In this document: positions 10,897-58,299 of the stretch, in pieces
Position numbering within the stretch: position 1 is the stretch's first letter
Layout of the letters: each line of letters begins with the position of its first letter
Assembly: GCF_000154825.1 (NCBI RefSeq)
Contig: NZ_DS560015.1
Span: 273,052-337,051 of the forward strand
Source of the DNA: Anaerofustis stercorihominis DSM 17244
Lineage (GTDB): Bacteria > Bacillota > Clostridia > Eubacteriales > Anaerofustaceae
Direction of reading: 5' to 3'
DNA: 64,000 nucleotides
Program-made: the position numbers and the translations under genes
Notes under the pieces: model-generated
The model's input: only the letters and a program-made list of their open reading frames with translations
The model's database searches: none
Told to the model about the DNA's origin: nothing

Positions 10897-11787
10897 TTAA
10901 AATAATGAAAGTTGTTCAACTTCAATACTCTTTTTAAAATCTCTTATACCTTTCATGTAATTCCCGCTGACTTCATACTTTCTTCTTACATCATTTATTT
11001 TTTTATACATTTCTTCTTTATATTCTTTTGATACGTAAGCACCTTTGCCGTATACGTTCTTGACATTTTCATATTCATCGTGGAAATAATCCTTTACGAA
11101 ATCCATAAATACTTTTTTTGTATCTCCTTTTAAATTAAGGGGACCGGTAAGTATATAATTTATGTCAATGTCTTTTCCATAGGCAAAAATTTCCTCCAGA
11201 TTATCTCTGTCATCGGTTATATACGGCATTATGGGCATGGTATGGATAGCTCGGCTGGCTTTGGTTTTCTTCATTTCTCTGAGCATATTCACTCTTCTTT
11301 TTGAGCTTACGCTGCCGGGTTCTATTATCCTTCTCCTGTCTTCATCCATTACGGTTATTGTTGAAGCGATATTTACATAAGTCAGCCTTGAAAGTTCATC
11401 TATGAGTTCGATATCCCTCAGTATCAAATCCGATTTTGTGGAGATAATGACAGGCTGTTCGTATTTTATCATCAGCTTTAGTATCTCGGGCATTATTTTA
11501 TACTTTTCTTCTATGGGCTGATAAGAATCGGTGACGCTTCCCAAGTTTATGACATCTTTATTTCTCTTTCTTCTGAGTTCCTTTTCAAGGACTTCGACTA
11601 TATTTGTTTTAACAAAAACATCTCCGAAAAAATTATCCGACTGTAAGTATCTGTTGGAATATATTGCATAGCAGTATTTACATCCGTGAGTACAGCCTCT
11701 GTATACATTTAAATCAAGATGATAGGGGAGTCTTGAATTTGATATCCTGTTTATCGCGCTTTTACATGTTATTTCTTTTATTGTCAT
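10897..11787 (-). CDS. SPL-family radical SAM protein, probable DNA repair photolyase-like
   Basis: A 296-residue radical SAM enzyme. The cluster motif is CTHGCKYCYA (C-x3-C-x2-C), set in LDLNVYRGCTHGC as in spore-photoproduct-lyase-like COG1533 proteins. Later blocks such as GSVTDSYQPIE and ISTKSDLILRD match this group. ATG 11787 with an AAGGAC site is chosen because a longer reading would cover the promoter. The promoter carries a LexA-like box, which supports a DNA-damage role. It has no spore-specific neighbours. Confidence 0.85.
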   Translation of the reverse strand: MTIKEITCKSAINRISNSRLPYHLDLNVYRGCTHGCKYCYAIYSNRYLQSDNFFGDVFVKTNIVEVLEKELRRKRNKDVINLGSVTDSYQPIEEKYKIMPEILKLMIKYEQPVIISTKSDLILRDIELIDELSRLTYVNIASTITVMDEDRRRIIEPGSVSSKRRVNMLREMKKTKASRAIHTMPIMPYITDDRDNLEEIFAYGKDIDINYILTGPLNLKGDTKKVFMDFVKDYFHDEYENVKNVYGKGAYVSKEYKEEMYKKINDVRRKYEVSGNYMKGIRDFKKSIEVEQLSLF

Positions 11788-11811
11788 AATATTGTCCTTG
11801 TATATATTATT

Positions 11812-11862
11812 AGAACTTTTGTTCGTTGTATTTATTATAACAAAATAAAGCCCTTTTATCAA
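11812..11862 (-). promoter_or_regulatory. SigA promoter with LexA (SOS) box
   Basis: On the minus strand TTGATA (11857-11862) and TATAAT (11834-11839) are 17 bp apart. Eight bp further on lies CGAACAAAAGTTCT (11812-11825), a near-consensus Gram-positive SOS box with GAAC-N4-GTTC symmetry, in position to block transcription start. Confidence 0.75.
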
Positions 11863-11928
11863 TACTTTTGTACTGGTGTTCTTATAACAGCTTTGCCTCT
11901 TGAATGTTGTTTCTTATAAAGAAAACTC

Positions 11929-11959
11929 TTGACTCTGACACTATGCCAGGGTTTATAAT
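11929..11959 (+). promoter_or_regulatory. MerR-type promoter of the GyrI-like gene
   Basis: TTGACT and TATAAT are separated by 19 bp. The spacer holds the dyad CTGACA-CTA-TGCCAG at 11935-11949. It matches the promoter of the MerR/GyrI gene at 35746-35776 in 26 of 31 positions, pointing to one shared regulator. Confidence 0.75.
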
Positions 11960-11989
11960 AAGAATAACGAATTAAAGGAAGTGTAAAAA

Positions 11990-12646
11990 ATGGAAAAATT
12001 TGATTACAAAAAAGAATATAAAGATTTATATATGCCTAAAAAGAAACCGTCTATCATAGATGTTCCAAAGATGAATTTTATAATGGTAAAAGGAAAGGGA
12101 AATCCCAATACATCGATAGAATATAAGAATGCCATGGAAATACTCTACGGGCTTTCGTTTACCATAAAAATGAGCAAAATGAGTAAAGACCCCATGGATA
12201 GGATAGAGGGATATTTTGAATATGTGGTTCCTCCTTTGGAAGGGCTTTGGTGGCTTGATGAAGGAGGTTTTGACGGTATAAACATAACTGATAAGGACAA
12301 GTTTCAGTGGTATTCCATGATAAGACAGCCCGAGTTTGTAACGAGAGATGTATACGAATATGCACTTGAAAAGTTTTCAAAAAAGAAACCTGAGGTTGAT
12401 TTATCAAATACTCGGTTTAAAACCATTGAAGAGGGGTTATGCGTCCAGATAATGCATATGGGATCCTATGATGATGAACCAGCTTCGATAGCAAAGATGA
12501 ATGAGTTCATAGAAAAAGAGGGGTACGAAACCGATATAAATGATGAAAGGCTTCATCATGAAATATATCTTTCCGACCCGAGAAAAGTCAAGAATATAAA
12601 TAATTTGAAGACGGTTATTCGTCATCCTGTTAAAAAAAGAAAATAG
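11990..12646 (+). CDS. GyrI-like small-molecule-binding domain protein
   Basis: A 218-residue stand-alone GyrI-like domain protein. The start FDYKKEYKDLYMPKKKPSIIDVP and MNFIMVKGKGNPN are typical of this soluble group, whose members bind or hydrolyse small hydrophobic compounds. The promoter has a MerR-type 19 bp spacer whose operator also occurs before a MerR regulator that itself has a GyrI-like C-terminal domain (35807). Drug sequestration or detoxification is therefore a reasonable guess. Its stop codon TAG is the first base triplet of a palindromic repeat. Confidence 0.85.
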   Translation: MEKFDYKKEYKDLYMPKKKPSIIDVPKMNFIMVKGKGNPNTSIEYKNAMEILYGLSFTIKMSKMSKDPMDRIEGYFEYVVPPLEGLWWLDEGGFDGINITDKDKFQWYSMIRQPEFVTRDVYEYALEKFSKKKPEVDLSNTRFKTIEEGLCVQIMHMGSYDDEPASIAKMNEFIEKEGYETDINDERLHHEIYLSDPRKVKNINNLKTVIRHPVKKRK

Positions 12647-12811
12647 GGGCTCTGCCCCTAAAACCCCGCAAAGTTTTTTCCGAAGCAAAAAAACTTTGAG
12701 TTAAATGCTTCCGCTGGGCGCGGTGCCTTATAACGCGACCGGATTTTCTGCAAAATGCTGCCCGCATTTTGCGTAACAGTCGCTGCTCCGCCCTTTTGGG
12801 CAGGGATGTTG
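12645..12811 (+). repeat. Palindrome-rich interspersed repeat, copy 1 (single unit)
   Basis: It starts on the stop codon with AGGGGC-tct-GCCCCT. Then come AACCCCGC and an AT-rich hairpin AAAGTTTTTT/AAAAAAACTTT with loop CCGAAGC, and then the large nested hairpin at 12735-12784. That hairpin has outer stem GCGACCG/CAGTCGC, inner stem GCAAAATGC/GCATTTTGC and loop TGCCC. A last small hairpin GCCCttttGGGC follows. Confidence 0.85.
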
Positions 12812-12923: not shown

Positions 12924-13640
12924 GTATCTTCAAAGATGTTTAAGCCTATCTTATCTCTGTATAAAAATAATTTTAAGGTCATTCTTATAGATTTTTTAGG
13001 CTGTGGTAAATCGGATAGGGTAGAAAAGTTCGATACTGATTTATGGATAGATCAGGGGAAGCAAGTTACTAAACTTATAAAGCATCTGGGGTACGATAAA
13101 GTAAGTCTTATGGGAACCAGCGGAGGTGCATGGGCGGCAATAAATGCGGCGCTTTACTGTCCTAAGCTAATAAATAAAGTAGTTGCAGACAGCTTTGACG
13201 GAAGAAAACTAGGCGATACTTTTAAAGAAGATTTGATAGAAGAAAGAAGAAATGCAAAGAAAAGTATTTTTACTAAATGCTTTTATAAATGGTGTCATGG
13301 TAAAGATTGGGAAAATGCAGTGGACTCTGACACAGAGGTGCTTATAAAAATGTCTGCGGAAGATGTTCCTTTATTTTATAGACCTATAAAGGAATGATCC
13401 GTTCCGCTTCTTCTTACAGTCAGCATTGGAGATGAAATGATAAAAAAGGATTTTATCATAGGGATAGAAAAAGAGTGGGTAACCATTCTTTTTTAATATG
13501 AACTGCTGCAAAATATCCTCTATATTATAAATATGAGTATTGTTGTTATAATATTTGCCAGTATTATTATACTTCTCGGAAGAATATTTTTAATTGTTGT
13601 CATATCATATAACGATAATTAACTTAACGGTGTTTTTTTA
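12924..13640 (+). pseudogene. Truncated duplicate of the 23.3-25.0 kb hydrolase locus
   Basis: Three blocks are collinear with the locus at 23346-25000. Bases 12924-13447 read as identical to 23346-23869 and encode 153 residues of the alpha/beta hydrolase (12936-13397) without its N-terminus or nucleophile-side leader. Bases 13470-13555 match the terminator and the C-terminal end of the convergent membrane protein. Bases 13570-13640 match the start of the small membrane protein gene at 24893. The later blocks are clearly more diverged than the first. An in-frame TGA at 13395-13397 is shared with the parent. No ribosome site precedes the open frame, so it is probably not expressed. Confidence 0.85.
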
Positions 13641-23258: not shown

Positions 23259-24008
23259 ATGTCATATTTTAAATATAAAAACAAGAATGTATATTACTGC
23301 GAAATAGGTAATGGGAAACCGGTAATGTTCCTTCACGGTAATGGGGTATCTTCAAAGATGTTTAAGCCTATCTTATCTCTGTATAAAAATAATTTTAAGG
23401 TCATTCTTATAGATTTTTTAGGCTGTGGTAAATCGGATAGGGTAGAAAAGTTCGATACTGATTTATGGATAGATCAGGGGAAGCAAGTTACTAAACTTAT
23501 AAAGCATCTGGGGTACGATAAAGTAAGTCTTATGGGAACCAGCGGAGGTGCATGGGCGGCAATAAATGCGGCGCTTTACTGTCCTAAGCTAATAAATAAA
23601 GTAGTTGCAGACAGCTTTGACGGAAGAAAACTAGGCGATACTTTTAAAGAAGATTTGATAGAAGAAAGAAGAAATGCAAAGAAAAGTATTTTTACTAAAT
23701 GCTTTTATAAATGGTGTCATGGTAAAGATTGGGAAAATGCAGTGGACTCTGACACAGAGGTGCTTATAAAAATGTCTGCGGAAGATGTTCCTTTATTTTA
23801 TAGACCTATAAAGGAATGATCCGTTCCGCTTCTTCTTACAGTCAGCATTGGAGATGAAATGATAAAAAATGATTTTATCTCAGAATATGAAGAAATCGTT
23901 GGAGAAATCGGAGCGGGGGATATCCATATTTTTAAAAAAGGAAAACATCCCGCTGTCATATCAAATGCCAAAGAAGCGTCAAAAATCATAACAGACTTTC
24001 TTAAATAG
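23259..24008 (+). pseudogene. Alpha/beta hydrolase with in-frame TGA
   Basis: The frame from ATG 23259 (GGGGG site) to TAG 24008 is 250 codons, the normal size of this hydrolase group, but a TGA at 23817-23819 interrupts it after RPIKE. Beyond it the same frame continues as SVPLLLTVSIGDEMIK and ends with KKGKHPAVISNAKEAS, which carries the catalytic Asp/His side. Upstream are the oxyanion motif FLHGNG and the nucleophile region GTSGGAW. In this copy the elbow reads G-T-S-G-G. A truncated duplicate at 12924 has the same TGA. TGA ends other genes here, so a nonsense mutation is most likely. Confidence 0.8.
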
Positions 24009-25604: not shown

Positions 25605-25762
25605 GGATAGGGGTAGCGGTCGTTTGGAGAAATTGTGGGTAACAATTTCCCAAAATTCGACCGCGTTAAAGAGCCTTCACGGCGAATGAGTGAAAGAACT
25701 TTTACCCCTTTTTTGTTTCTTCGGACAAAAAAGGGCAGGGTTCCTAAGGGACGGAGTCCCTT
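25605..25762 (-). repeat. Palindrome-rich interspersed repeat, copy 2 (single unit)
   Basis: Reverse orientation relative to copy 1. The nested hairpin at 25616-25664 has outer stem GCGGTCG/CGACCGC and inner stem GAAATTGT/ACAATTTC. The AT hairpin at 25705-25735 is CCCTTTTTTGT/ACAAAAAAGGG with loop around CTTCGG. It ends with AAGGGAC-GGA-GTCCCTT. It lies about 95 bp before the acidic membrane protein gene. Confidence 0.85.
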
Positions 25763-33583: not shown

Positions 33584-34112
33584 TGCAAGACGAAGTCTTG
33601 CCACTTTTTTGCAGGACTTTGTCCTGCTAGCTACATCAAGGGCTTTGCCCTTAAACCCTTATAAGGGGCGCTGTCCCTAAAACCCCGGCACTTTTTAAAA
33701 GATTAAAAAGTGCCAAAAAATCTCCGCTCAAGCCGCGGTGGCTTATAGCGACTGGATTTCCTCAGAAAATCTACCCGATTTTCTGGGAACAGTCGCTAAC
33801 CCCACCCCCTTTACATTGAAAGTTTTATATTTTATTAAAGGTTATAACTCTTTTAGGTAATATGCGGGTGAGTTACATCAGTAAGTTTAATATTCTTTTT
33901 GCTGAAGGCTTTAGCACCACGCAGTGGAAGAATTTGACTGTTTACCCATTAATAAATGGGCTGGATTTTATTAAAATCCAGATGTGCCTTGGCATATTAA
34001 ACAACACGAGCGGATTTGCGTCAGCAAGATTTGAGAGTTTCCATAAGTTTATTTTTTCTTTGGAAAAAACTTCGTCGGGTTTTTAAGGGGTGCAAGGGGC
34101 AGTGCCCCTATG
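33584..34112. repeat. Palindrome-rich interspersed repeat, copy 3 (two inverted units)
   Basis: The left unit starts with hairpins GCAAGAC/GTCTTGC, GCAGGAC/GTCCTGC and AAGGGC/GCCCTT. It continues with GGCACTTTTT/AAAAAGTGCC (33687-33714) and the nested hairpin at 33747-33797 (outer AGCGACTG/CAGTCGCT, inner CAGAAAATC/GATTTTCTG). The right unit is inverted, with CCCATT/AATGGG, CTGGATTTT/AAAATCCAG and TGCC/GGCA hairpins, and ends GGGGC-agt-GCCCC. Confidence 0.85.
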
Positions 34113-37671: not shown

Positions 37672-37925
37672 CAATAAGGGGTTCTTCCCCTTAAACCTTA
37701 TGCAGGGCTCTGCCCTACAATCCGCCAATATTTTTCCAAAGATAAAAATATTGGATAAAAATCTTTCACTCAAACGCCGTGATGGCTTATAACGCGGTCG
37801 AATTTGACTATTCGCTGTTCGTCAGAACAGATAAATTTAATAAATGTTAAATTTATTCAAGCTTTAGCTTGATGAATTACACGAGCGGATTTGCTTTAGC
37901 AATATTTGCGAGTTTTTTTATTTAA
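37672..37925 (+). repeat. Palindrome-rich interspersed repeat, copy 4
   Basis: AAGGGG-ttctt-CCCCTT and AGGGC-tct-GCCCT lead into CCAATATTTTT/AAAAATATTGG (37725-37754, loop CCAAAGA), then GATAAAAATCTTTCACTC and a decayed nested-hairpin part. It ends with AAGCTTTAGCTT and GAGCGGATTTGCTTTAGCAA, the second conserved module. Confidence 0.75.
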
Positions 37926-38058
37926 TCTCTATCCTAGATTTTTTAAACGATCGCTATCCCAACCTATTTTTATGAAAAATCTGCTATATAATAAATTACT
38001 TTTTTACCCTTATAAATAAAGTTTTTTTCTTAAACTTAAGATAAAACCTTTATTTATA

Positions 38059-38295
38059 AGAGGGGTAGGGTAGCGACTGTTTCGCAAAATGCGGGAAGCA
38101 TTTTGCAGAAAATCCAGTCGCTATAAGCCTCCGCGGCTTGAGCGGAGATTTTTTTGGTACTTTTTAATCTTTTAAAAAGTGCTGGGGTGCGGGGTAAAAC
38201 CCCGCAAAAGAGGTTTGGGAAACTTCCCGAGGTATTGGGACGAAGTCCTGATAAGATTATTTTAAGGGTAAAAGGGATGTGCCCTTTAGATATTG
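38059..38295 (-). repeat. Palindrome-rich interspersed repeat, copy 5
   Basis: Inverted relative to copy 4, which lies 130 bp before it. The nested hairpin at 38072-38122 has outer stem AGCGACTG/CAGTCGCT, inner stem GCAAAATGC/GCATTTTGC and loop GGGAA. The AT hairpin is TACTTTTTAA/TTAAAAAGTG. Hairpins GGGGT-aaa-ACCCC and AAGGG/CCCTT close the unit, just before the TPP riboswitch. Confidence 0.82.
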
Positions 38296-38340
38296 ACATA
38301 ATCCTACAATTATGCTAGCATAAAATTACAAATTTAATAT

Positions 38341-38472
38341 ATAAGCAGGGGAGCTTTTTGCTGAGAGGAAAAATTAATTTTCGACCCTTAACCTGATGTG
38401 GATAATGCCAACGTAGGAAGCATTTAATGATGATTATTAAACGGGAATCCGAATTGGTTTCTCGTTTTTTTT
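38341..38472 (+). ncRNA. TPP riboswitch with terminator
   Basis: The thi-box landmarks are in order: GGGGAGC (38348), CTGAGAGG (38361), GACCCTT (38383), AACCTGAT, then GGATAATGCCAACGTAGGAA. A terminator stem, AAACGGGAA-CC with GG-TTTCTCGTTT, ends in eight T at 38465-38472. High TPP should favour termination before cytX. The eight bases ATAAGCAG at the very start are complementary to CTGCTTAT just after the terminator. Confidence 0.95.
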
Positions 38473-41921: not shown

Positions 41922-42382
41922 GGGCTTTGCCCTTTAACCGCTCTGTAGGGCTCTGCCCTACGACCCGCCAATTTTTACTTGTCTAAAAATTGGATTTAAC
42001 GACCCCGCCGGGTGCGGTACCTTAGCCTTCGTGGAAGAGATATTAAACTTATTGTGGTTTATCATATTCCAATTACCTAAAAGAGTTATTTACTCTAAAA
42101 TTAGAAAAAACTTTTAATGTAAAGGGTTGGGATAGCTTCTCTTCCAAGAAACGCGGGGCAGCGTTTCTTAGGAAATCGAGAAGCGTTAATAGCCACCACG
42201 GCTTGAGTGGAAGCATTTGACTGTTTACCCATTTGAAAAATGGGCTGGATTTTTAATCCAGATGTGCCTTGGCACATTAAACAACACGAGCAGATTTGCG
42301 TTAGCAATATTTGCGAGTTTCTTTAAGTTGTTTTTTGCTTCGGAAAAATATTCGCAGGGTTTAAGGGACGGAGTCCCTTATA
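41920..42382. repeat. Palindrome-rich interspersed repeat, copy 6 (two inverted units)
   Basis: It starts on the thiD stop: TAAGGGCTTTGCCCTTTA, then TAGGGC/GCCCTA and CCAATTTTT/AAAAATTGG (41968-41993). The inverted unit has the nested hairpin at 42135-42184 with a different outer stem, GCTTCTC/GAGAAGC, and inner stem AAGAAACGC/GCGTTTCTT. CCCATTT/AAATGGG, CTGGATT/AATCCAG and GTGCC/GGCAC hairpins follow, and it ends AAGGGAC/GTCCCTT. Confidence 0.85.
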
Positions 42383-48679: not shown

Positions 48680-49109
48680 GGGCTGTCAGCCTTTTACAAC
48701 TCGATCATGTTTTTCTTGTCCAGTTCGCAAATCTTGCTAAAGCAAATTTACTGCACAGCATAACTTCGAAATCATGTTATTAAATGTGTTTCACACATCT
48801 AAAATTTACTAATAGTTACAATATGGACAAAAGAACCTCGTTAGGCACGGTGCTTAAGCCTTTGTGGAAGAGTTATTAAACTTATTTAACGCTTTCATCC
48901 GCAAATCATCTAAACAATTTATTAGCTTTAATTAAAGATAAAATTTTTATTTGTCGGGATGGGAAAGCGACTGTTTCACAAAATGCGGGCAGCATTTTGC
49001 AGAAAATCCAGTCGCTTTAAGCCTCCGCGGCTCGAGCGGAGATTTTTTGGTACTTTTTTATCTTTAAAAAAGTGCCGGGGTTTTAGGGGCAGAGCCCCTA
49101 GGTTGTTTG
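48677..49109. repeat. Palindrome-rich interspersed repeat, copy 7 (two units)
   Basis: It starts on the lrgB stop with TAAGGGCTGTCAGCC. The left part is the decayed second module (GCAAATCTTGCTAAAGCAAAT, AGATGTGT/ACACATCT-like). The right, inverted unit has the nested hairpin at 48966-49016 (AGCGACTG/CAGTCGCT, loop GGGCA), then GCCTCCGCGGC and GGTACTTTTTT/AAAAAAGTGCC. It ends AGGGGC-aga-GCCCCT, 30 bp before yaaA. Confidence 0.85.
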
Positions 49110-51121: not shown

Positions 51122-51349
51122 ATCACGGCAATATCAGAAGTTATCGGGAACAGGATCATAGAACTTTGCAGTGAAAGAGATTTATCGATAAATAAATTAG
51201 CCAAATTGTCCAACGTAGCTGTATCGACAATAGATAATATAGTAAATGGGCGATGCAGTAATCCAAGGATATTCACAATCAAAAAAATATGCGAAGGCTT
51301 TGGTATGTCTGTCATTGAATTTTTTGATTTTGAGGGTTTAAAAAAATAA
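51122..51349 (+). CDS. XRE-type HTH protein with apparent ATC start
   Basis: A 75-residue frame with a clear HTH: IIELCSERDLSINKLAKLSNV, then STIDNIVNGRCSNPRIFTIKK and GMSVIEFFDF. No ATG, GTG or TTG exists in frame before the HTH. The codon ATC at 51122 stands five bases after GAGGA and gives an N-terminus of the same length as the paralogue at 57703. Either it starts at a non-standard codon, probably coupled to the gene before it, or its start is mutated. Confidence 0.65.
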   Translation: MTAISEVIGNRIIELCSERDLSINKLAKLSNVAVSTIDNIVNGRCSNPRIFTIKKICEGFGMSVIEFFDFEGLKK

Positions 51350-53555: not shown

Positions 53556-54250
53556 GGAAGCCTTATACCCTTGTAGGGTTCCACCCTACGACCCGCCAGT
53601 ATTTTTCCGAAGCAAAACATACTGGATAAAATGCTTCCACTGCGTGGTGCTTAGGCTTCGCCAAAAGAGATCTTTAACTTACTGAAAAATATCAATCGCT
53701 ATTTACCTGAAAAAGTTATTGCCTTTAATAAAATTTAAAACTTTTTTATGGTAGCTTCTTTTCTAAAGAATGCGGGTAACATTTTTCCGAAAATTGAGAA
53801 ACGTTAAGAGTCTTCAATGCGACATCGTGAAAGCATGTATCTCTTTTTGCCAGACCGAAAACGCTAAAAGGATTTTAGATATTTTAACCGATAAGAAAAT
53901 TTACAAATTATCTTAGGGGAATTTGTTGCACGGTATAACTACGAATTTATTTTATTAAATATGCTAAAACATGTCTAAGCTCAATAAATTAAACTTGGTA
54001 AGGTTTTTTTGAAATCTTAAAATAGTCACAATATCACGGAGCAGAGGTCAATATGACTTCTTGGTTTACTGTATGGCGAACGCCATTTATGGTCTTTTGC
54101 GAGTGGTTATTATACACATAAGCAAATTTTTATTAAGATAAATTTGTTATTTATAGCTTGTGTTATAAATCTAAATTTTGTCATACATAATTTAATAAAC
54201 CTATTTTTTTGTTTTTTTATTGACAAAAATGGCAGGGTTTGTAATAGACT
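53553..54250. repeat. Palindrome-rich interspersed repeat, copy 9 (compound, partly decayed)
   Basis: It starts on the prmA stop with TAAGGAAGCCTTA, then GTAGGG-ttcca-CCCTAC, CGACCCGC and CCAGTATTTT/CATACTGG (53596-53625, loop CCGAAGC). The nested hairpin at 53753-53804 is worn. Beyond about 53900 only traces of the second module (TTGTTGCACGGTATAAC) remain, and the rest up to 54300 is AT-rich sequence without a gene. Confidence 0.7.
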
Positions 54251-56253: not shown

Positions 56254-56660
56254 AGGTTATAAGGTCTTTCAGCCCTTAATAACTCGACCAATATTTTTTC
56301 GAAGATAAAAATAACTTAGGGAAACTCGCAAATCTTGCTGACGCAAATCCGTTGCACAGCATAACTTCGAAATCGTGTTGCTTAATGTGCCAAGGCACAT
56401 CTAGATTAAAAATCCAGCCCATTTTTCAAATGGGTAAGCAGTCAAAATCTCCGCTCGCCGCGGTGGCTAAGAGCTTCGCCAAAAGGGATATTAAACTTAC
56501 TGAAGTGGGTCAATCGTAAATCACCTAAAAGATTTATTAGTTTTAATAATAGATAAAACTTTCGTTGAAAAAATGTGCTAATTCAAAAGAGATAGGACGT
56601 ATAACTTATTTTACTGCGCGGTGCTTAACCTTCGGCAGAAGGGATCTAAAAGTCACTATG
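56251..56660. repeat. Palindrome-rich interspersed repeat, copy 10 (compound)
   Basis: It starts on the alcohol dehydrogenase stop (TAAAGGTTATAAGG). The second module is well preserved in reverse: GCAAATCTTGCTGACGCAAAT, CGAAATCGTGTTGCTTAATGT, GTGCC/GGCAC, ATTAAAAATCCAG and CCCATTT/AAATGGG. CTCGCCGCGGTGGC follows, then a decayed remainder. Confidence 0.75.
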
Positions 56661-58034: not shown

Positions 58035-58195
58035 CGTGGGGTCGGGGTAGCGGTCGTTTGGAGAAAGTGCGGGCAGCTCTTTCTCAAAATCCGACCGCGT
58101 AAGAGCCTCCACGGCAATTGAGTGGAAGCATTTAATCCATTTTTGTTGCTTTGGACAAAAATGGTCGGGTTCTTAAGGGCGGACAGCCCTTAAAG
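58035..58195 (-). repeat. Palindrome-rich interspersed repeat, copy 11 (single unit)
   Basis: The nested hairpin at 58050-58098 has outer stem GCGGTCG/CGACCGC, inner stem GAGAAAG/CTTTCTC and the loop TGCGGGCAG. Then GCCTCCACGGC, ATTGAGTGGAAGCATTTAAT and the AT hairpin CCATTTTTGT/ACAAAAATGG (58137-58165). It ends TTAAGGGC-gga-GCCCTTAA-like. Confidence 0.85.
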
Positions 58196-58299
58196 GCTTG
58201 TTTATTTAAATAAAAGCAATAAATATCATATTAATTTCATATAAATCACATTAAAGATACATATACATAAAATAATATATGATTAAATCATAAGGATGA

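Follow-up and report, generated by a model that had tools for sequence, protein, structure and literature searches.

A dispersed four-hairpin intergenic repeat of Anaerofustis with covarying stems and a near-constant loop

The repeats that most resemble the one considered here belong to a few described groups. According to the parts of PMC3116915 on which we draw, REP and REPIN sequences, with their RAYT transposase, are extragenic and present in many copies, and their hairpins lie in inverted arms around a spacer, with compensatory changes in the spacer hairpins. The BOX, RUP and SPRITE repeats of Streptococcus pneumoniae, in the portion of PMC3049150 used here, are short interspersed sequences with a predicted fold and a narrow host range; BOX is modular, and the authors view all three as parasitic and almost absent beyond close relatives. 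Prokaryotic MITEs, in the section of PMC10969869 consulted, are short, non-coding, intergenic and structured, and they are thought to be moved in trans. A process is relevant as well, namely template switching, which in the passages of PMC8794818 cited here copies one hairpin arm onto the other and keeps stems perfect, events that change the loop being rare.

The current analysis concerns an intergenic element of about 145 nt in Anaerofustis stercorihominis DSM 17244, examined within a stretch of 64,000 nt of its genome (the window). It resembles REPINs in being extragenic, multi-copy and hairpin-forming, with inverted arm pairs and compensatory changes, the pneumococcal repeats in being interspersed, foldable and narrow in host range, and MITEs in being short, non-coding, intergenic and structured. 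In contrast to REPINs as described in those parts of PMC3116915, it has a four-hairpin arm, crossing helices and paired arms that are unlike in stem sequence, and no Y1 transposase was found in the four genomes that carry it. From BOX, RUP and SPRITE it is set apart by the description in that portion of PMC3049150, from which its architecture differs, and from MITEs (PMC10969869, same section) by inverted ends that match in structure, not in letters. With the template-switched hairpins of the PMC8794818 passages it shares multi-base paired stem changes, few intermediates and mostly unchanged loops; those cases are RNA genes, whereas the present one is a bacterial repeat that is dispersed and probably mobile and that has crossing helices. 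We file the element as a new variant among the miniature dispersed structured repeats, REPIN- or BOX-like in architecture. Within the literature searched, in the parts of each text that were available, there was no description of this repeat and none that joined Anaerofustis, a repeat and an intergenic location. Our leading reading, to which we give about an even chance, is that the hairpin at 58050-58098 belongs to one arm of a mobile DNA element of Anaerofustis, which would be miniature and non-autonomous. This reading draws upon copy numbers, covariation, the constancy of a loop, a bulge and crossing helices, the pairing of arms, differences between corresponding sites, and gene context.

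Architecture, copies and host range

The element consists of four hairpins on the plus strand, termed H1 to H4, the first of which occupies exactly the coordinates originally predicted (58050-58098). H1 is preceded by a leader, CGGGGTA (58043..58049), in which G 58046, G 58047 and A 58049 recur in 93, 80 and 96 of 99 distinct copies, respectively. Its 7-bp outer stem joins GCGGTCG (58050..58056) to CGACCGC (58092..58098), as indicated by sequence and covariation. The middle stem, TTTG (58057..58060), pairs with CAAA (58085..58088), based upon sequence and the covariation set; its fourth pair varies among copies and is open in the predicted fold, in which TTT is paired with AAA. Sequence and fold together delimit the inner stem, whose arms AGAAAGTGC (58062..58070) and GCTCTTTCT (58076..58084) contain a single T.T mismatch and enclose the loop GGGCA (58071..58075; family consensus GGGYA). 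A conserved, unpaired ATC lies on the 3' side (58089..58091) and reads ATC in 74 and ATT in 11 of the 99 distinct copies. Downstream, H2 (58105..58126, positions counted by eye) is formed by two crossing helices, GCC 58105-58107 with GGC 58113-58115 and TCCAC 58108-58112 with GTGGA 58122-58126. It is followed by H3, CCATTTTTGT-TGCTTTGG-ACAAAAATGG (58137..58164), and by H4, TTAAGGGC-GGACA-GCCCTTAA (58173..58193), which were found in 87 and 67 of 121 downstream regions with 38 and 32 distinct 5' arms, respectively. A full arm thus comprises H1, a pseudoknot-like H2, H3 and H4, and arms are found alone, in tandem, or in outward pairs of near-constant spacing. According to mechanical ORF calls, the copy at 58043-58127 sits between an 87-aa ORF and an 888-aa ORF whose best named relative, at 94% identity, is from A. 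stercorihominis DSM 28733. We take the 888-aa product to be a P-type ATPase.

Copies were sought using three covariance models, R1 (H1 and H2), R2 (built from 30 diverse copies) and R3 (H2 and H3), whose E-values are rough due to a short calibration. In the window, R1 finds eight H1 copies, and the outer and inner stems listed in the original prediction are all present there as paired arms. Two of the copies carry the GCGGTCG outer arm: the one at 58043-58127 (+), which combines GCGGTCG/CGACCGC with GAGAAAG/CTTTCTC, and a single arm with H1 to H3 at 25609..25737 (+; R1 and R3), which has the inner stem GAAATTGT/ACAATTTC. GCGACTG/CAGTCGC with the inner stem GCAAAATGC/GCATTTTGC is found at 38066-38147 (+), the H1 of the right arm of an outward-facing pair spanning 37723..38184 (+); the left arm, 37723-37791 (-), has its H1 interrupted by another repeat, and by eye this adds one interrupted copy at about 37790-37960 (-) to the eight found by R1. 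Small departures from the GCGACTG/GCAAAATGC type are seen in an H1 arm at 48960..49079 (+), part of a composite beginning at about 48676 (by eye), and in a single arm at 12667..12790 (-; H1 match at 12709). Another GCGACTG arm, with the inner stem CAGAAAATC/GATTTTCTG, lies at 33684..33803 (-; H1 match at 33722; R1 and R3) inside a composite of about 33640-34110 (limits by eye). GCTTCTC/GAGAAGC with AAGAAACGC/GCGTTTCTT occupies 42128-42212 (+) in the outward-facing pair 41964..42248, which has its left arm at 41964-42026 (-) and its right arm at 42187-42248 (+). The remaining pair, 53594..53832 (+), joins a left arm at 53594-53656 (-) to a decayed H1 at 53747-53832 (+). A weak left arm at 56415..56472 (-; R3, E 0.0096) was detected without a right arm, and an R3 match at 51313 (E 0.012) was excluded from the arm count. 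TGCGGGCAG occurs three times, versus 0.06 occurrences expected by chance.

Other repeats were also encountered. A second dispersed multi-hairpin repeat, with stretches like TTAAACAACACGAGCAGATTTGCGTTAGCAATATTTGCGAG, is present in the window at 33975-34082, 42255-42362, 56266-56450 and 37861-37915, and is sometimes nested within hairpins of the first element. By eye, H1 or H3 is interrupted by another repeat in some copies (window about 37790-37960, L093:8040 and L100:2241). Two 300-nt direct copies, 100% identical, lie 10.4 kb apart at 12924-13223 and 23346-23645.

Within its own genome, R1 matches the element 66 times at E ≤ 10 and 51 times at E ≤ 0.01. At the latter threshold there are 48 matches in a sister Anaerofustis species (G001), 23 in another Anaerofustis species (G002) and 1 in a related genus of the same family (G009), and no match in the remaining 37 of 41 genomes; counts outside these fetched regions are those returned by the search tool. 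With R2, the carriers among 13 family genomes, and likewise among 67 order genomes, were again these four, with two matches in G009, while a class-wide draw (11 candidates scored per genome) yielded 2 of 391 genomes, both of the own genus. Among the genomes searched, the element is confined to three Anaerofustis species and one related genus. The copy from the latter has the same order of parts by eye, with one extra hairpin and different stems. In the sister species, copies cluster on contigs C5, C8, C27 and C47, tandem copies included (L064:1362-2034). Four phage records gave matches of ≤24 nt at E 0.6, the plasmids searched gave no match, and viral contigs, screened with a single 31-base pattern from H1 of one stem type, gave no exact match. 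R1 likewise found no match on 16 of 80 ATPase loci. Against Rfam 15, two stretches of the element scored far below gathering, and the whole window gave none covering the element; its sole hit was a TPP riboswitch at 38337-38436, downstream of one element arm pair.

Covariation of the stems and constancy of the unpaired parts

The 124 matches in fetched stretches (51 from the own genome, 48 from G001, 24 from G002, for an Anaerofustis total of 123, and 1 from G009) were used to examine pairing. The loop served as an anchor in 112 of these, without use of the pairing itself; the 12 that were dropped had no loop anchor or were shorter than 60 nt (9 had no loop). Full columns were available for 107 copies, 99 of them distinct, after removal of 5 of the 112 with gaps in arm columns, and the further removal of one interrupted copy left 98 rows. 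Among the 99 distinct copies, 97.8% of outer, 83.6% of middle and 96.5% of inner positions pair with the copy's own opposite arm, versus 65.7%, 68.4% and 68.4% when arms are matched with those of other copies. A covariation test was performed as our own R-scape-like computation with a tree-aware null, in which each column receives as many changes as were observed in it, placed on random branches. With the tree in the null, the covariation for which the original prediction asked a test is significant: 9 of the 19 pairs covary at E ≤ 0.005 (98 rows), and each of the ten column pairs that covary most strongly in the 58-column alignment is a predicted pair. The other ten pairs are non-significant singly, namely outer pairs 1 (E 172) and 2 (0.2), all four of the middle stem (1.6-8.1) and four of the inner stem (0.3-93).

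A set of 30 diverse copies gave 215 cells changed on both sides versus 6 changed on one side, with 27 of 28 pairs changed on both sides and 91.1% of positions paired, compared with 36-48% when the register was slid. The claim that pairing is kept while the bases change is thus borne out. Most shuffled and slid controls were far below the observed covariation; the number of further pair types was not above shuffles (51 vs 49.9, 221 of 500). Downstream, the 4-pair H2 helix together with H3 gave 63 both-sided cells and 86.1% pairing, versus 44-62% when slid (28 sequences). Both H2 helices covary in the 30-copy set, the second in the 28-sequence set as well.

Conceivably, a few ancient stem types were simply expanded by copying, such that the covariation is a phylogenetic echo. 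Copies do group into types, the commonest being GCTTTTC/GAAAAGC (14 of 107), GCGGTCG/CGACCGC (10 of 107) and GCGACTG/CAGTCGC (10 of 107), and many are near-identical within species. However, shared descent is already included in the tree-aware null that yields the nine covarying pairs, 66 pair-by-branch double changes were counted in the 98 rows, and in the 107 copies the outer arm pair takes 40 distinct forms and the inner one 43. We consider shared descent alone to be very improbable.

The unpaired parts behave differently from the stems. The loop reads GGGTA in 61, GGGCA in 44 and GGGAA in 5 of the 124 matches, a sum of 110, and 9 have no such loop; this constancy is partly built in, as the copies used to construct both models and anchors carry a GGGYA loop. 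The constancy of the bulge and of H2 is less affected by this bias. AT(C/T) is kept in 85 of the 99 distinct copies. Both crossing helices of H2 are present in 92 of 120 distinct sequences (a few truncated at contig ends), compared with 3.6% of mononucleotide shuffles, and the short helix among those 92 is GCC/GGC in 61 and GGC/GCC in 25. Purines predominate in the H4 loop in 63 of 67 cases. The near-constant loop that had been proposed therefore stands, in the refined form GGGYA, its flanking TGC and GCA being part of the varying stem; of the bulge given as AAAATCC, the AT(C/T) portion is indeed unpaired and constant, while AAA pairs with TTT.

These constant parts also bear upon a different explanation, in which the palindromes are inert with respect to folding, template switching keeps their arms perfect, and mobility or conversion carries them around the genome. 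Arm correction within a palindrome had been named at the outset as the scenario that could overturn selection on a fold. It is a documented process, loop-altering events are rare (both in the cited passages of PMC8794818), and the few intermediates fit it well: the 215 paired versus 6 one-sided cells resemble single-step rewriting, as does an orthologous site (L071/L007) at which the stems were replaced with H3 and H4 kept. Nonetheless, arm copying alone explains the data badly, because it would erase bulges and sometimes flip loops, yet both are mostly constant. AT(C/T), the loop, its polarity and two short crossing helices persist across stem types, none of the loops examined reads as a recurrent H3 loop in reverse complement, and by eye the same constant parts reach a second genus. 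Inert palindromes are accordingly an unlikely explanation. Template switching is a likely source of the paired changes, and a folded single strand under selection is favoured. In this respect the original prediction is supported; the recognition of the loop that it added is something we infer, no binding protein having been found, and the strand in question could be RNA or single-stranded DNA.

The folded strand and gene context

The evidence leans to DNA over RNA as the folded form. Folding of 58040-58200 beats 200 of 200 shuffles as plus-strand RNA (z -5.1) and as DNA (z -6.1), and the minus strand folded as RNA gives z -6.1. If a single RNA strand mattered, G-U pairs should be tolerated above A-C mismatches. 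The outer and inner stems of H1 contain 26 G-U and 15 A-C (p 0.12), a count that leaves out the middle stem, for which the register is not the same in all types; as registered here, the middle stem has 16 and 25, which brings the whole of H1 to 42 and 40. The 141 distinct downstream hairpins, H3 and H4 included, have 20 and 19. As a yardstick from the same sequences, one-direction terminators gave 64 to 29 and two-direction terminators 31 to 25, under a similar strand-neutral scoring. The power of the test is modest, since one-direction terminators themselves gave only 64 to 29.

Gene context was tabulated for 106 of the 124 copies. The copies are intergenic, with 8 of 124 overlapping uncurated ORFs of 81-131 aa. 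Between co-directional neighbours, 30 are in sense and 39 in antisense orientation (nominal p 0.34), with opposite tendencies in the own genome (sense 20:9) and in G001 (antisense 24:9). Convergent genes flank 28 copies and divergent genes 9 (nominal p 0.003). These P values assume independence among copies, an assumption that does not hold for neighbouring ones.

Together, these data allow an RNA-level role to be weighed, in which the arm acts within transcripts, as 3' or 5' untranslated RNA, in stability, termination or processing, and the folded RNA is selected. Strong RNA folding on both strands, the many copies directly after gene ends, a pseudoknot and UUCG-like H3 loops typical of RNA, and the surplus of G-U over A-C in the outer and inner stems are all consistent with such a role. 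On the other hand, that surplus is non-significant, disappears with the middle stem and is absent downstream, the orientation relative to co-directional genes is mixed, DNA folding is equally strong, and no Rfam family matches. We regard an RNA-level element as possible but rather doubtful.

Arm pairs, site differences and candidate movers

An arm census of the window and 28 other stretches of the own genome, performed with R3, gave 78 arms, one of them by R1 only. Neighbouring arms ≤700 nt apart form 19 pairs, of which 13 face outward, none inward, 3 are ++ and 3 --, and the spacing is 157-161 nt in 6 of the 13 outward pairs. In these arms, the inverted hairpin-arm doublets with a regular spacer that characterize REPINs are found. 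Outward pairing is not the sole arrangement, since H1 neighbours ≤300 nt apart in all fetched stretches comprise 8 outward, 12 ++, 2 -- and no inward pairs, the 12 ++ pairs all being in G001 stretches. The foot of a REPIN hairpin carries a GTAG-type tetranucleotide. Here, by eye, the foot is GTAG in many copies and also GAAG, ATAG, GCAG, AAAG and others. Paired arms have unlike H3 stems in 8 of 8 cases where both could be recovered (13 pairs tried) and unlike H1 outer stems in 5 of 5 (8 tried), so the sequence-alike terminal inverted repeats of MITEs are lacking, whereas the element is short, non-coding, intergenic, multi-copy and present or absent between relatives, as MITEs are. By eye, the unpaired portions of left and right arms are alike.

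Five window sites (33722, 38066, 42128, 48960 and 53747) are filled in the own genome and lack the element in the sister species, where R1 found no match at the corresponding places; the stretches concerned measure 486-788 nt in the former versus about 5-311 nt in the latter. Stem types are also partitioned among species, with GTGGTCG, GCATTCC, GCATCGG and GCACTCG (25 copies) found in G001 only, and GCGACTG, GCGGTCG and GCTTCTC common to the own genome and G002 and absent from G001. The commonest types of the own genome belong to the latter group. Seven orthologous sites were compared between the own genome and G002. The same arm is kept at two (L073/L005 and L085/L094), one arm is kept and the other is not at L079/L089, the H1 stems differ beside kept H3 and H4 at L071/L007 as noted above, and stems are unrelated at L081/L088, L087/L092 and L075/L096. 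The copy at L085:1715-1799/L094:1847-1931 has a stem type found nowhere else in the fetched sequence. Between the two species, only 2 of its initial 155 positions differ, and by eye these lie outside the stems, versus 34 differences in the 300 nt beyond. This near-identity looks like selection at that site as opposed to free drift, and it counts against the mobile reading. A target-duplication junction, compared between G002 (L086) and window 11760-12060, was ambiguous, as the relatives are too divergent.

With regard to a mover, a RAYT/IS200 partner was rejected, as no Y1 transposase (PF01797) was found at E ≤ 0.001 in any of the four carriers, while 5 of 14 control genomes were positive. An element of REPIN type could still have been moved by a RAYT transposase since lost from these genomes or missed by the profile; three of the four carrier assemblies are drafts of 70-220 contigs, in which a gene may have gone unseen. 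The outward arm pairs and their regular spacer agree with such an origin, and so do compensatory changes like those reported for REPINs (PMC3116915, in the parts used here). Given the negative profile search in all four carriers, we consider it quite improbable. Retro-mobilisation was rejected too, because the distribution of reverse transcriptases does not track the element: at E ≤ 0.001 none was found in G001, with its 48 copies, or in G009, and three of the five family genomes with a reverse transcriptase are without the element. The sole reverse transcriptase of the own genome, a 319-aa ORF (L204:1378-2337; contig C1 around 222859), lies close to several copies; we take this to be the size of a retron reverse transcriptase. 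The 122 ORFs of 100-900 aa near copies at chosen loci of the own genome and G001 include no transposase among the matches listed (25 of 181 families). A short hydrophobic ORF, by eye like a type I toxin peptide, lies among four clustered copies at L100 (own genome, C5:545500-552000).

Returning to the reading of H1 as part of a mobile DNA element, a possible mechanism can be outlined. In a single-stranded DNA state, during either replication or movement, the arm would fold, and a trans-acting protein would read its shape together with the loop, the bulge and the crossing helices (GGGYA, AT(C/T) and H2) instead of the stem letters. Being moved or kept would thereby select for pairing and leave the stem sequence free to drift, and template switching within the palindromes would probably introduce many paired changes in one step. 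In its fullest form, this is a DNA element recognised by its fold and moved by a non-Y1 enzyme, with a fixed loop, bulge and pseudoknot, stems rewritten pairwise, and new types expanding in separate lineages. So specific a version is tentative, and we hold it to be possible without being probable. Should a mover act on these arms, it is probably not of the Y1 family and would represent a partner new to miniature elements. Furthermore, the 123 Anaerofustis matches, with their paired stem changes at comparable sites, make the evolution of stems, whether by selection through weak intermediates or by one-step template switching, directly countable in bacteria.
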